Below, one piece after another: positions 30,148 to 58,692 of a stretch of DNA of 64,000 nucleotides. The notes below the pieces were generated by a model. The model worked only from the letters and a program-made list of their open reading frames with translations, was not told where the DNA came from and ran no database searches. This DNA is from Ignavibacteriota bacterium. GTDB taxonomy: Bacteria; Bacteroidota; Ignavibacteria; Ignavibacteriales; Melioribacteraceae. The translations under genes were made by a program, and so were the position numbers. How positions within the stretch are numbered: the stretch's first letter is position 1; the number at the start of each line of letters is the position of its first letter. The stretch is taken from NCBI GenBank assembly GCA_013112585.1, contig JABFGH010000004.1, positions 1 through 64,000 on the forward strand, in the 5' to 3' direction.

Positions 30148-30157
30148 AAATTTGTTC

Positions 30158-30365
30158 GAAGTACAAAGTACTTCAAATTGAATAACTATGGATGGAATCC
30201 ATAGAAAATATAAGTGGGAAAAGATACCGAACTGCAACGCAGTTCAAGAAGAATGATTGTATTGAAAAAACAACGTCAACTACACCCGTAGTTGTTCCGG
30301 CGTGTTGGATCATTGCTATCCCCGAATTTCATTCGGGGATATTTGTATTCGACTGCGTTGCAGTC
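30158..30365 (+). repeat. Six-palindrome repeat module, locus A (single copy)
   Basis: Six distinct hairpins in a row: GAAGTAC-AAA-GTACTTC (30158-30174), CTATGGAT-GGA-ATCCATAG (30186-30204), GAACTGC-AAC-GCAGTTC (30229-30245), CAACTAC-ACCC-GTAGTTG (30277-30294), CCCCGAAT-TTC-ATTCGGGG (30320-30338, extendable by AT on each side) and GACTGC-GTT-GCAGTC (30351-30365). I name these P1 to P6. The module lies between the operon terminator and the convergent SGNH gene. The same order occurs at 46.7-47.5 kb and, inverted, at 56.2-57.4 kb. No convincing protein is encoded; open frames through it are by-products of the palindromes. Confidence 0.9.
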
Positions 30366-30404
30366 ACAGAACAAAATATAATAAGGTTATTAACGTTCGG
30401 CTGC

Positions 30405-32446: not shown

Positions 32447-32864
32447 GTCATTGCAAATCGGTCTTCGTCAGTTGACAGACGACGGATGAAACAATATTTA
32501 ATTTGAGATTACTTCGTCATCAAAAAGCGATTCCTCGTAATGACAGAATATAATTGTCATTGCTTCCAAAGGAATCCCTTCGAGAGAATTCCGATGTCTT
32601 CCTCGATTAAGACATTCGAGGACAGGTTTATCGGAGTGAAGCAATCTCAGGATTGGGATTACTTCGTCATCAAAAAGCGATTCCTCGTAATGACAGCTTA
32701 TTATAAGTTCATTAAAAATATTTTAATTCTGTCCTCATTCTGTCCTCATTCTGTCCTCATTCTGTCATTGCGAATTCCGATGCTTTTTATCGGAGTGAAG
32801 CAATCTTTGGTTTGAGATTACTTCGCCGTAAAAAGCAACGACTCGTAATGACCGGGTATTATAG
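32447..32864. repeat. Dispersed GTCATTGC/GTAATGACA-type repeats, three units, with an 11-bp tandem repeat
   Basis: The gap between the SGNH and GH13 genes is filled with related units. One ends at 32545 with ATTACTTCGTCATCAAAAAG and then CGATTCCTCGTAATGACA. One runs 32553-32697, from TTGTCATTGCTTCC to the same ending. A third runs from about 32761 (GTCATTGCGAATTCCGATG) to 32852. GTCATTGCGAGG...GAAGCAATCTC repeats are widespread in many bacterial genomes and are non-coding. Between units two and three, ATTCTGTCCTC is repeated three times in tandem (32726-32758) plus a partial copy. A further member lies at 50350-50467. Confidence 0.75.
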
Positions 32865-46593: not shown

Positions 46594-46665
46594 CAAAGGC
46601 AGATACCCCAAACCGCGAAATAATCTCCGCACAATAAAATCTGTGTAAACAATCGACAATAATCA

Positions 46666-46866
46666 GAAGTACGAAGTACTTCAAGAAAAATAGCTATGGA
46701 TGGAATCCATAGAAAGGAGGAATGCAGAAGGAGAACTGCAACGCAGTTCAAGTGGAAATATAGTATTGGAGGCGAACCTTCAACTACTTCGTAGTTGCTC
46801 CCAATCTTTCTTGTCGATTTCCCCGAATTTCATTCGGGGCTATTCATCTTCGACTGCTTCGCAGTC
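46666..46866 (+). repeat. Six-palindrome repeat module, locus B copy 1
   Basis: All six palindromes in the order of locus A: P1 with loop GAA (46666-46682), P2 with GGA (46694-46712), P3 with AAC (46733-46749), P4 CAACTAC-TTC-GTAGTTG (46781-46797), P5 with TTC (46821-46839), P6 with TTC (46852-46866). The P3-P4 linker (AAGTGGAAATATAGTATTGG and the bases following) matches the reverse complement of linkers in locus C units 1 and 5, so homology extends beyond the stems. Confidence 0.9.
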
Positions 46867-46906
46867 TTAAAATAGTGGAAATCTAGCAATTAAATCGTAT
46901 TAAATA

Positions 46907-47250
46907 GAAGTACGGAGTACTTCAAGATGAATAGCTATGGATAGAATCCATAGAAAGGAAAAAAGAATTGTTTTGTCAGAACTACGAAGTAGTTCAAGAA
47001 CGAATATTTAAACAAGGCTATGAAAACACAAAATTTATTCAACTACTTCGTAGTTGGCTGCAATCTTTCTTATCGATTCCCCCGAATTTCGAGGCTGTGT
47101 GAAAATTATAAAAATACATTAACCCACGATTTCAATCGTGGGTAATAGAACTAAAAAATGAATATTTTACCTTACCCGTTTTATCGATTTTAGCAGTTTT
47201 CAAACAGCCTCTTTCATTCGGGGCTATTCATATTTGACTGCTTTGCAGTC
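46907..47250 (+). repeat. Six-palindrome repeat module, locus B copy 2, interrupted
   Basis: P1 loop GGA (46907-46923), P2 loop AGA (46935-46953), P3 variant GAACTAC-GAA-GTAGTTC (46979-46995), P4 (47040-47056), P5 split into a left arm 47080-47087 and a right arm 47216-47223, P6 loop TTT (47236-47250). The P5 loop holds a 121-bp insertion (47091-47211). P3 differs from the other copies by a G-to-A change in one arm and the matching C-to-T in the other, so pairing is kept. Confidence 0.88.
47091..47211. mobile_element. 121-bp MITE-like insertion in the loop of a P5 palindrome
   Basis: The ends are GAGGCTGTGTGAAAA and, inverted, TTTTCAAACAGCCTC: 15-bp terminal inverted repeats with one mismatch. 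TTTC lies on both sides (47087-47090 and 47212-47215), while uninterrupted P5 copies have it once, so it reads as a 4-bp target duplication. Inside is a strong palindrome with arms ACCCACGAT (47122-47130) and ATCGTGGGT (47135-47143). There is no transposase; it would need one supplied from elsewhere in the genome. The ends recall those of IS elements of the IS1182 kind, but this is from memory and unverified. Confidence 0.8.
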
Positions 47251-47339
47251 ATCTCACATAATTTATTATAAGAGAAGATTCTTCATTAATTCAGATGTTC
47301 GAATTGTTTCGGTACAAAAAATTGACTGAATATTATTCA

Positions 47340-47537
47340 GAAGTACGGAGTACTTCAAGAAAAATAGCTATGGATGGAATCCATAGAAAATAGGAATGCA
47401 GAACGGGGGAGAACTGCAACGCAGTTCAAGAAAGATGTTTACAAATGGAAAGATACCTTCAACTACTTCTTTGTTGGAAAATTTAATTGTCTTATCATTT
47501 ACCCCAAATTATCTTCGGGGCTATTTATTTTCACTGC
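47340..47537 (+). repeat. Six-palindrome repeat module, locus B copy 3, decaying
   Basis: P1 (47340-47356, loop GGA), P2 (47368-47386, loop GGA) and P3 (47411-47427, loop AAC) are intact. P4 has a damaged right arm (CAACTAC then TTTGTTG, 47460-47476), P5 has changes in both halves (CCCCAAAT ... TTCGGGG, 47502-47520), and P6 is barely recognisable (TCACTGCCAGT). The right half appears free to drift in this copy. Confidence 0.75.
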
Positions 47538-47581
47538 CAGTTATATACGAATTTAAAGTTTTCAAAAGAAATTCAGCAAGT

Positions 47582-55736: not shown

Positions 55737-56132
55737 ATGGAGAAATTAGTCAAATACATTTTCATAATGATAGCTATTGTAATTCCTTTTACAACCGTTT
55801 CTTCAGAAAACCCGGGAAATTCCGGCGCAAATGAATACTTAGCATTTGCCGAAGAAATGCCTGCTCCTGTTGGCGGATTAAAAGCTTTGTACAAAAAAAT
55901 ATCCTATCCTACAATAGCAAAAAAAGCAAAACTTGAAGGGAAAGTTTTTCTGCTTACTTATATTGATGAAAAGGGAAATGTAACTGATGTTAACGTTGTG
56001 AAAGGTATTGGCGGCGGATGTGATGAGGCTGCATCGGAAGCTGTAAAATCAACAAAGTTTGAACCGGGTAAAAACCAGGGTCAACCGGTTAAGGTTAAGC
56101 TTTCATTAACTATCAGTTTTAAATTAAAGTAG
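55737..56132 (+). CDS. Small exported TonB C-terminal-domain protein
   Basis: 131 residues; GAGGAA precedes the ATG. One N-terminal hydrophobic segment (IFIMIAIVIPFTTVSS) may be a cleaved signal or an anchor. A TonB C-terminal domain fills most of the remainder (ISYPTIAKKAKLEGKVFLLTYIDEKGNVTDVNVV ... KSTKFEPGKNQGQPVKV). The proline-rich linker needed to span the periplasm is missing, so it is unlikely to energise receptors in the classical way and may be a soluble or short-tether TonB-like protein. Locus C of the palindrome modules begins 29 bases after its stop. Confidence 0.85.
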   Translation: MEKLVKYIFIMIAIVIPFTTVSSENPGNSGANEYLAFAEEMPAPVGGLKALYKKISYPTIAKKAKLEGKVFLLTYIDEKGNVTDVNVVKGIGGGCDEAASEAVKSTKFEPGKNQGQPVKVKLSLTISFKLK

Positions 56133-56160
56133 TTAATCAAAATTTGATGAAATTTTAATT

Positions 56161-57402
56161 GACTGCAACGCAGTCAAAGACAAATAGCCCCGAATTAAAT
56201 TCGGGGTAAAATATACGACAATTAGATTTACCAACTACGAATGTAGTTGAAGGTACGCCCCCAATACTATACTTCCACTTGAACTGCGCTGCAGTTCTTC
56301 CTCGTTATTCATTCTACTTTTCTATGGATTGCATCCATAGTTATTCAATTTGAAGTACTCCGTACTTCTGAATTAAACAGGCTGTTTCTTTTGCTATTGC
56401 ATTTCTATGACTGCAACGCAGTCAAAAATCAATAGCCCCGAATGAAATTCGGGGGAGATTGAAGCGGCGCGAATATTTACAACTACGGATGTAGTTGAAG
56501 TGTTTTTTCTGCATCGTTAACTTGAACTGCGCTGCAGTTCTCCCTCGCTCTGCATTTCTTTTCTATGGATTTCATCCATAGCTATTCAATTTGAAGTACT
56601 CCGTACTTCTGAATTAAACAGACTGTTTCTTTTGCTATTGCATTTCTATGACTGCAACGCAGTCAAAAATCAATAGCCCCGAATGAAATTCGGGGGATAT
56701 TGAAGTGGCGCGAATATTTACAACTACGAATGTAGTTGAAGTATTTTTGCTGCATCGTTAAACTTGAACTGCGCTGCAGTTCTCCCTCGCTCTGCATCTC
56801 TTTTCTATGGATTTCATCCATAGCTATTCGTCTTGAAATACTCCGTACTTCTGAATGAATACTGAATTTTTTCACTCCACATTATTGTTCCTGTGACTGC
56901 AACGCAGTCAAAGGTAAATAGCCGCGAATGGAATTCGGGGTGATGTTGAAACAATTAGATTTACCAACTACGAATGTAGTTGAAGTATTTTTGCTGCATC
57001 GTTAAACTTGAACTGCGCTGCAGTTCTCCCTCGTTATTCATTTTACTTTTCTATGGATTTCATCCATAGCTATTCGTCTTGAAGCACTCCGTACTTCTGA
57101 ATGAATACTGAATTTTTTCATTTCATATAATTGTTCCTGTGACTGCAACGCAGTCAAAAGTAAATAGCCCCGAATGGAATTCGGGGTGATGTTGAAACAA
57201 TTAGATTTAGCAACTACGAATGTAGTTGAAGGTACGCCCCCAATACTATACTTCCACTTGAACTGCGCTGCAGTTCTCCCTCGTTATTCATTTTACTTTT
57301 CTATGGATTTCATCCATAGTTATTCGTCTTGAAGTACTTCGTACATCTGAATTAAACAGGCTGTTTCTTTTGCAATTGTATTTAGATGACTGCAACGCAG
57401 TT
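56161..57402 (-). repeat. Tandem array of six-palindrome modules, locus C (five units plus partial)
   Basis: Units begin at P6 (GACTGC-AAC-GCAGTC) at 56161, 56409, 56650, 56895, 57141 and 57388, a period of 241-248 bp. Read on the plus strand the order is P6-P5-P4-P3-P2-P1, the reverse of loci A and B. Units end at P1 at 56368, 56609, 56851, 57097 and 57347. The sixth unit has only P6 (with GCAGTT) and is cut by the 3' end of the next gene. All P5 arms are CCCCGAAT/ATTCGGGG except unit 4 (CCGCGAAT). Loops differ between units. Linkers come in at least two subtypes that are mixed among units. It lies between two convergent genes. No cas genes and no coding sense. Confidence 0.93.
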
Positions 57403-57417
57403 AAAGGTGAATAGCTC

Positions 57418-58692
57418 TCAACCTTTCTTTTCTAAATTAACTCCGATTACAAAAACTGTTTTTTCATCAACTTTAATTGGAATTACAATTTCCCAGTAAC
57501 TGTAAAAAGTATTTAAGAATACATTTTTAATAGCAGGAGAATCAATTTGGGTTTTTATCCCATATCGTTCAATTGCTAATCTTATTTGTGATGCAATTGT
57601 GAGGCAAATGTAATTTAAGTGCGGATGGGATGAATCGCTAAGTATGTTTGGGGGGTCTTTTAGTAATTGTACTAACTTCTTTGCATCCGGTTCATCACCT
57701 ACAATACCAATGTTTAATACAAAGTCATCTTCAACTGCAATCAATTCGGCTTTTGATAGTACTTTATTTTCTAAAGTATTCACATCAAAATTTTCAATTA
57801 TCTGCAATCCTTTTTCTGCTTTTAACTGAAGAGAATTTTTGATTGAACTTATTACATCAAACTGAATGTATGTTTTAAAAATCTGCTGCATGTAGCCGAA
57901 AAGACTTCCGTAATTCAAAACTTTTGTGGAAAACTCGCGCATAAAACTATCAGTTAAAAATGATTTTTGAATTACACCGTCGAATAAATCCTGATTTGTT
58001 TTAAACGATTCATTTATATCTCTGCAAAGAAAAATTTTGAGTTCAGATTTTGTGTTTGTTTCTCTTAATTTTTTTATTAGCTCCACTTCATTTTTCGTTT
58101 TAAGATTATCGCTAATAATTATTATATCGGGATTAGTGTTCAAGGCGGCTTTTGCGCATTCAACCTCATCCTTTGCTTCAGCAATTCTAAATTGATTATT
58201 AAGAAGCTGTTTAAAAAATGTTCTAAAACCTTGGTCAGAATCTGCTAGAACTATTTTTTGTCTTTTAATACCTGCAAGCAGTTTATCCTCAACTTTTTCC
58301 TCTTTTTTCTGCTGCGATCTCGATTTTAACCCGCCTAAAATTTCTTTTAACTTATCGAATGTTTGATAATAGCCGAAAGGTTTTAATATATATGCAAAAA
58401 TTCCAAGCTGAAGAAACTCATTTACTGTTGTGGCATCATTGTGAGCCGTCATTATTACTACCGGTAAACTATCAGTTGCAGGGTCCCTTCTTATTTGTCT
58501 CAAACATTCAATGCCGTCCATCTGGGGCATACTAATATCTAAAAAGACTATATCGGGCACTTCTTTCTGAATACTATCGAGCGCCTCTATTCCATTGGAC
58601 GCTTCGGCAACCTTAAAGCCGAACTTTTTTAGAATAAGTCTTTTTAAGTAGAATCTCGTACTTTCTTCATCATCAACAATTAAAATTCTCAT
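57418..58692 (-). CDS. Tandem-receiver response regulator with a CheX-like C-terminal domain
   Basis: 424 residues. Receiver 1 is complete (ILIVDDEESTRFYLKRLIL, Asp52 in VFLDISMPQMDG, Thr82 in VVIMTAHND, Lys in YILKPFG). A charged linker leads to a second, weaker receiver from about residue 145 (QKIVLADSDQGFRTFFKQLL, PDIIIISDNLK). Residues about 275-424 form an alpha/beta domain (LTIASQIRLAIERYG, VIPIKVDEKTVFVIGVNLE) that recalls CheX/CheC-type phosphatases; this is tentative. No DNA-binding domain. The last codons run up against the palindrome array. Divergent from the PAS kinase gene at 58987, a possible partner. Confidence 0.8.
   Translation of the reverse strand: MRILIVDDEESTRFYLKRLILKKFGFKVAEASNGIEALDSIQKEVPDIVFLDISMPQMDGIECLRQIRRDPATDSLPVVIMTAHNDATTVNEFLQLGIFAYILKPFGYYQTFDKLKEILGGLKSRSQQKKEEKVEDKLLAGIKRQKIVLADSDQGFRTFFKQLLNNQFRIAEAKDEVECAKAALNTNPDIIIISDNLKTKNEVELIKKLRETNTKSELKIFLCRDINESFKTNQDLFDGVIQKSFLTDSFMREFSTKVLNYGSLFGYMQQIFKTYIQFDVISSIKNSLQLKAEKGLQIIENFDVNTLENKVLSKAELIAVEDDFVLNIGIVGDEPDAKKLVQLLKDPPNILSDSSHPHLNYICLTIASQIRLAIERYGIKTQIDSPAIKNVFLNTFYSYWEIVIPIKVDEKTVFVIGVNLEKKG

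Follow-up and report, generated by a model that had tools for sequence, protein, structure and literature searches.

We describe here an array of short palindromes in the genome of an Ignavibacteriota bacterium that is probably a cluster of non-autonomous REP/REPIN-like elements, with a Y1 HUH transposase of TnpAY1 subclass 1.2 as the cognate enzyme. The array is built from a three-hairpin module that also brackets Y1 genes in several phyla, and it therefore most likely consists of gene-less copies that are recognised, and were once spread, by the transposase. The general kind of system is recognisable, in that a Y1 transposase with dispersed palindromic substrates is already known; new in this variant are the three hairpins per module, the sequence at the hairpin foot, and a protein subclass that has been tabulated without REPs. 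Searches of the literature at the level of titles and abstract openings gave no description of the three-hairpin module.

Structure of the palindrome array

The window, by which we mean the whole stretch of 64,000 nucleotides analysed (positions 1 to 64,000 of contig JABFGH010000004.1), contains the array at 56158-57405, with the five units of 241-248 bp, the partial sixth, and the six short-loop hairpins in one order that had been described from the sequence in the original prediction. Tandem Repeats Finder reports it at 56160-57405 with a period of 241-246 and 5.1 copies, and the register copies begin at 56160, 56408, 56649, 56894, 57140 and 57387, with spacings of 248, 241, 245, 246 and 247. 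The hairpins follow one another as GACTGC, CCCCGAAT, CAACTAC, GAACTGC, CTATGGAT and GAAGTAC, and this order is constant between units. A hairpin scan finds 26 of the 30 expected (5 x 6) to be perfect, with loops of 3-4 nt, and the four imperfect ones carry a mismatch (hairpin 6 of units 3, 4 and 5, and hairpin 2 of unit 4). Folded as single-stranded DNA, a single unit reaches -39.4 kcal/mol compared with a shuffle mean of -18.3 (z -6.6), and none of 200 shuffles equals it. The features of the window are as follows.

56158-57405, + strand: tandem array of five six-hairpin units and a partial sixth (repeat finding, register copies and hairpin scan)
56158-56370, + strand: unit 1 (left module 56158-56254, right module 56274-56370)
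56406-56611, + strand: unit 2 (left module 56406-56502, right module 56517-56611)
56647-56853, + strand: unit 3 (left module 56647-56743, right module 56759-56853)
56892-57099, + strand: unit 4 (left module 56892-56987, right module 57003-57099)
57138-57349, + strand: unit 5 (left module 57138-57233, right module 57253-57349)
57387-57405, + strand: partial unit 6, hairpin 1 only, with a mismatch in one arm
30156-30368, - strand: single six-hairpin unit of the array's family, between two convergent genes
46664-47545, - strand: three more units of the array's family, one interrupted by a 121-bp insertion
55737-56132, + strand: 131-aa ORF neighbouring the array and ending 26 nt before it (context only)
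57418-58692, - strand: 424-aa ORF neighbouring the array, with its stop 13 nt after it, convergent with the left ORF (context only)

The nine copies originally counted in this stretch agree with the three sites at 30156-30368, 46664-47545 and 56158-57405. A CRISPR and a coding repeat, both dismissed at the outset, are rejected here as well: there are no spacers, the repeat unit being the hairpin set itself, and no ORF of at least 90 aa overlaps the window array. We also note two short sequences elsewhere in the window. The 121-bp insertion (47091-47211, minus strand) has the ends GAGGCTGT...ACAGCCTC with GAAA at both flanks, splits hairpin 2 of one unit, and resembles a small MITE flanked by a 4-bp duplication; a short tandem repeat of ATTCTGTCCTC is present in 3.7 perfect copies at 32726-32766.

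Each unit is an inverted pair of one module

Alignment A1 comprises the 21 units of this genome that hold all or nearly all of the six hairpins, with partial units left out. Pairing is kept in 98.4% of its 895 cells and seven of the 43 pairs vary on both sides, which none of 500 shuffles reaches; this shuffle control leaves the relatedness of the units uncorrected, and a partner-sliding control was run as well, in which pairing falls to 16-38%. Taken together the six stems are supported by covariation, with stems 3 and 5 varying on one side only. Changes in both arms are seen in hairpin 6, where GAAGTAC/GTACTTC becomes GGACTA-C/GTAGTCC, and in hairpin 2, where CCCCGAAT/ATTCGGGG becomes CTCCGTAT/ATGCGGAG (G-U allowed).

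The spacer of hairpins 1 and 2 in A1 is AA-N-AATAG in most copies and that of hairpins 5 and 6 is CTATT-N-TT in most, and because these are one sequence on opposite strands the spacers mirror each other; AAG mostly follows hairpin 3, and CTT mostly precedes hairpin 4. A covariance model built from the left modules of this genome only (R1) detects right modules on the opposite strand, with scores of up to 65.4 bits (C11:58883-58976 minus) and with 52.9 bits at the right module C4:57005-57099 minus. Within the window array it detects four of the five right modules in this way, those of units 2-5, and the right module of unit 1 is not among its opposite-strand matches. Hairpins 4-5-6 are thus the inverted counterpart of hairpins 1-2-3, and a unit consists of two inverted copies of a single three-hairpin module of ~95 nt. 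When five units were aligned by plain scoring with their reverse complements, two scored above all 200 dinucleotide-block shuffles and the other three, including both window-array units in the test, did not exceed the largest shuffle; this test is weak because gapped hairpin arms spoil it, and the covariance-model test replaced it. Each module has an outer stem of 6-7 bp, a middle stem of 8 bp and an inner stem of 7 bp, and AATA[G/A] stands directly at the 5' foot of many middle hairpins, with AGTAG and GGTAG as minor variants.

This design alters two parts of the original prediction. The six distinct stems, as opposed to one, are present, but they are not independent, since stems 4-5-6 mirror 1-2-3. 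The statement that the array is not a simple REP/BIME holds for the three-stem module, but a unit that is an inverted pair of one such module is REPIN/BIME-like after all.

Dispersal of the module in the genome

With one unit as query, blastn gives 34 matches, partial ones included, on C1, C2, C4, C11, C16, C24, C27, C32 and C33. R1 has 78 matches on 21 of the 77 contigs at E <= 0.01 (150 of 3982 candidates scored), and a second model, R2, built without one truncated right module (20 of 21 used), has 97 at the same threshold, a set that overlaps the 78. All 13 of the family-A sites examined lie between ORFs, the only inner ORFs of at least 90 aa being two Y1 genes. In subfamily B many module pairs are joined in the other order, 4-5-6 and then 1-2-3, and the element that transposes may therefore have other boundaries than the unit of the window.

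Some subfamily B modules are, by eye, bounded by a further inverted repeat. One shared sequence (TTATTCCGTTGAAAGTCAAG...) is found at the ends of five contigs (C1, C15, C24, C54 and C2; loci L165, L166, L169, L177 and L184), inserted in a CCCC hairpin of subfamily B modules, and C8, C11, C19, C22 and C32 have R1 matches about as far from their ends. A multi-copy insertion sequence that targets subfamily B hairpins probably breaks the assembly at such places.

Y1 transposase genes of the genome

There are eight Y1_Tnp (PF01797) matches in the genome. The gene at C1:56558-57004 is flanked on either side by modules whose hairpins are intact, and that at C24:14777-15238 lies inside an array, between whole units rather than within one, with immediate ends that look decayed by eye. 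The genes on C13 and C25 are surrounded by other hairpin sets. The proteins of these four genes are 144-148 aa long, and all four score above the NCBIfam transpos_IS200 cut-off, with 25.8-32.2 bits against NCBIfam REP_Tyr_transpos, for which the cut-off is 80. They have the pattern HUH, W and Y---Q--HH, with DHLH in C1, EHVH in C25 and WS in C13, and the C1, C13 and C25 proteins are 76, 34 and 27% identical to that of C24. Across 30 aligned Y1 proteins H53, H55, W93, Y113, Q117 and H121 are invariant, and N116 and H120 are conserved in at least 90%. IS608 TnpA is a relative of known structure (2a6m, E 1.2e-16), and the other best relatives in the PDB we take to be ISDra2 and its relatives. Judged by the published motif, the proteins carry the signature of TnpAY1 subclass 1.2, which is given as DH[IV]H, WQ and Y---Q--HH with a length of ~148 aa in the portion of the survey available (Quentin et al. 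2018, PMC6006769).

The four remaining Y1 genes (two on C10, one each on C37 and C9) have the Y---NP motif of class 2, and R1 has no match at any of them. The possibility of a Y1/RAYT gene had been raised with the original prediction, and Y1 genes do occur with modules (C1 and C24), although they are not classical RAYT genes (class 2, Y---NP).

Further palindromes surround the other Y1 genes. The class 2 genes on C37 and C9 (L024 and L025) are flanked by hairpins of the palindrome TGTCGAGGA and look like a REPtron of the ordinary kind. Around the subclass-1.2-like C13 gene (L020, 1423-1857 minus) there are the palindromes CCAACGGAT, AACCAGT, AACCCGT and CCAATGGTT, ordered by eye, which suggest that one genome holds several multi-hairpin families. 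The C25 gene (L018, 1417-1851 minus), a third type, has the flanking hairpins CCCCGCCA, CTCCGGCA and, by eye, GGGCTAAAGCCC.

Modules bracket related Y1 genes in other genomes

A profile of the four Y1 proteins finds at least 434 related stretches in the named genome collection, and the best 80 of these at least 434 gave 79 loci, a sample that holds no cyanobacterial subclass 1.2 genes. By record title the hosts are mostly Bacteroidota, together with Ignavibacteria, Chlorobiota, Verrucomicrobia, Lentisphaeria, Cloacimonadota, Phycisphaerae, an Acidobacteria bin and others, and many of the loci are from MAGs, in which stray contigs are possible. Perfect hairpins are strongly enriched at these genes, with 313 within 500 nt compared with 22.5 expected from shuffles, and a density of 4.05 per kb near the gene versus 0.43 per kb at 2-2.5 kb. 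When the count is confined to segments without long open frames, the densities are 5.65 per kb close to the gene and 1.24 per kb elsewhere. At least two hairpins lie near the gene in 67 of the 79 loci and at least four in 40, with fewer than two in 12.

R1 matches 56 of the 79 loci at E <= 0.01 and is without a match at this threshold in the other 23, and 144 of its 169 matches fall no further than 500 nt from the gene. In the 150 nt upstream of the gene there are 44 matches on the plus strand and four on the minus, and within 150 nt downstream 39 on the minus strand and 10 on the plus, with 30 of the 79 loci having both a plus match upstream and a minus match downstream. Of the 44 upstream matches 17 stop 12-16 nt short of the matched coding segment, of the 39 downstream matches 29 start 2-16 nt beyond it, and an ATG directly precedes the matched coding segment in 29 of the 30 bracketed loci. 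AATA[G/A] abuts 46 of 105 8-bp stems versus 5 of 160 7-bp stems (background 0.5% per position and strand), and with all stems counted a footed hairpin is seen in 36 of the 79 loci. The family-A alignment shows three hairpins per end, as do most of the displayed loci. Similarity is higher between the two ends of a single locus than between ends taken from different loci (0.70 vs 0.63, n = 30, p = 8.5e-9), with a letter-shuffled control at 0.58.

These features bear on the possibility that the hairpin clusters are insertion targets rather than ends, such that a Y1 element jumped into pre-existing palindromes spread by some other process. REP palindromes are reported, in the part of the source available, to be targets of other insertion sequences (PMC8450116), these hairpins carry a multi-copy sequence at each of the five contig ends seen, and the C24 gene is situated between whole units. 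However, the nearly fixed orientation of module to gene, the tight spacing, the matching ends of a locus, and the tracking of protein family by module family (see below) all argue against random insertion into targets, and we consider this explanation improbable. It is yet harder to sustain that the array works as RNA, in the form of a structured 3'-UTR or intergenic transcript by which mRNA is terminated or stabilised. The stable hairpins with covariation and the location of the window array between convergent genes would suit such a role, but there is no Rfam match over the array, either at the gathering score or at E <= 1, the inverted design reads almost alike on the two strands, and Y1 genes of several phyla are bracketed by it. 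Moreover, the 13 family-A sites (four convergent, seven co-directional and two divergent) have no fixed gene context, which further argues against an RNA as the main function; some secondary effect at the RNA level may still occur.

Thirty genomes were searched whole with R1, of which 17 have matches at E <= 0.001 and 13 have none, with up to 32 copies in Siphonobacter and 15 in Belliella calami, on several contigs; several of the displayed Siphonobacter copies are hairpins 1 and 2 only, with an AATAG foot. A covariance-model search of the genome and its relatives had been suggested with the original prediction, and R1 finds the module dispersed in the genome and present in some of the relatives. 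A second dispersed repeat in Belliella calami (L261, ~1630-1830), with palindromes such as TCCCGAA...TTCGGGA and many matches in B. alkalica, differs by eye from the R1 module. Searches for empty sites of two Belliella calami loci found none in B. alkalica, B. aquatica and B. pelovolcani (the first locus was also searched in four further genomes, L053, L068, L071 and L078), because the flanking genes are apart and not syntenic or the spacers are too diverged, and the genomes examined gave no excision product, target rule or cleavage site.

Correspondence of module and protein families

R1 has matches at E <= 1e-5 in 10 of 116 genomes of the window's order, a count in which misses are likely because the filters were strict and 35 candidates were scored per genome; among the 110 of these genomes that are listed, none is of the window's genus except its own genome. 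Eight of the 116 have a Y1 protein at least 58% identical to that of C24 (G133 as two pieces, and G059 only part), a line drawn after the values had been seen, with the next lower value at 48%. Six of these eight are R1-positive versus four of the 108 others (p = 1.9e-6), and with our own genome left out the figure is five of seven (p = 1.6e-5); the four genomes with R1 matches and no close Y1 are G113, G128, G139 and G143. Each of six scanned close-Y1 loci outside this genome (G133 left out) has an R1 match at E <= 0.001, whereas loci of other Y1 genes have one at E <= 0.1 in four of 27. At L235 (G061) the matches right beside the Y1 gene are weak, with E values of 0.02 and 0.31.

In G093 (L234), a genome of the same taxonomic family, the stems CAACTGC, CCCCGAAT, TAACTGC, AAAGCGC, CTATGGGT and GAACTGC flank the Y1 gene on both sides, each time in this order. 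The opposite strand gives the cyclic order 4-5-6-1-2-3 of the window unit, which places the gene between hairpins 3 and 4, the position that it has on C1. In a wider set of 51 Y1 loci from the order, without the repeat Y1 genes L186, L187, L189, L190 and L193 and without the loci of this genome, there are 164 hairpins versus 20.3 expected, with at least two in 35 loci. The stems often differ among these loci, and other members thus carry other hairpin sets. One of the possibilities raised originally, that the array is a single-stranded DNA hairpin substrate for a Y1 transposase, is strongly supported by association, in that Y1 genes of this genome and at dozens of other loci are flanked by the module, whose families follow those of the Y1 protein.

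A role in chromosome architecture has been proposed for the BIMEs of E. coli, and the copies here are likewise dispersed and clustered between genes, but a module family as patchy as this one, positive in 10 of 116 genomes, is unlike a conserved housekeeping site, and it is highly improbable that the array is an architectural element bound by a nucleoid or gyrase-like protein. Neither the structured-RNA reading nor the architectural one is needed to account for the array.

Relationship to known Y1 systems

The E. coli REPtron, with REP, BIME and REPIN elements and TnpAREP (RAYT), shares with the system described here the dispersed intergenic palindromes, their inverted pairs and their clusters, and REP/RAYT systems share the short foot directly 5' of a hairpin and the flanking of a cognate Y1 HUH gene by repeats. 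They differ in having one hairpin per repeat, where there are three different hairpins per module here, in the foot, which is GT[A/G]G as compared with mostly AATAG or AATAA, and in the protein, RAYT being of class 2 (Y---NP) and the present proteins having the subclass 1.2 signature (Y---Q--HH). The IS200/IS605 elements (IS608 and ISDra2; TnpAY1 subclass 1.1) have a homologous small Y1 HUH transposase and hairpins at both ends of the gene, but with one subterminal hairpin per end, as opposed to three per end arranged as inverted repeats. They are also present as near-identical multiple transposase copies, whereas here there are many gene-less module copies, and the proteins within this genome are diverged to the degree noted above, which argues that they do not represent a recent multi-copy IS. 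IS200/IS605 elements insert beside a fixed tetra- or pentanucleotide and make no duplication; the Belliella searches gave no empty site for a comparison on this point.

The closest published group is TnpAY1 subclass 1.2, which shares the signature, the length of ~148 aa, the low copy number and Bacteroidetes among the hosts. In the part of that survey of 4,043 Y1 proteins that is available, subclass 1.2 is described as lacking IS features, as generally without typical IS200 end structures, and with REP given as 'no' in the table (PMC6006769). In contrast, most of the members sampled here have surrounding hairpins, and their hosts extend beyond the published account, as far as it is available, to records named Verrucomicrobia, Cloacimonadota and others (PMC6006769). 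Atypical hairpins without GT[A/G]G are also found around Y1 genes in TnpAY1 subclass 2.6 and class 3, the REPs of which are described as having 'atypical secondary structures', but those proteins belong to other classes, and the available description does not include an ordered three-hairpin module (PMC6006769).

Proposed mechanism and implications

We propose a model in which the recognition module is a single strand of ~95 nt that would fold into three hairpins. The autonomous form would have two inverted modules bracketing the transposase gene (1-2-3, gene, 4-5-6), and an inverted module pair that lacks the gene is the six-hairpin unit, amplified in tandem and dispersed between genes. The transposase is predicted to bind the hairpins where the DNA is single-stranded, for instance in the lagging-strand template, and could read the foot AATA[G/A] as a guide, with cutting and rejoining there causing units to be moved or copied. 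Tandem growth may occur through such cutting and rejoining or through recombination between units. Binding, cleavage and mobilisation by the Y1 protein are all suggested by its homology and by the anatomy of the modules.

More tentatively, and with the balance of our judgement somewhat against it, subclass 1.2 Y1 proteins and inverted three-hairpin modules might constitute a Y1 system of a third kind, next to IS200/IS605 and RAYT/REP. In such a system a single strand folded into three hairpins, rather than one hairpin, would be recognised, the hosts would include at least Bacteroidota, Ignavibacteria/Chlorobiota, Verrucomicrobia, Cloacimonadota and Planctomycetes, and there would be large gene-less populations, the window array being an example.

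The three-hairpin modules provide subclass 1.2 with a concrete and testable candidate substrate that has a recurrent foot motif, and they would account for a class of ordered palindrome arrays in Bacteroidota-like genomes. In the portion of the Y1 survey available, the automatic finding of REPs relied on the GT[A/G]G rule (PMC6006769). Such a rule would miss modules with an AATA[G/A] foot, and REP-like populations may thus be undercounted outside Proteobacteria.
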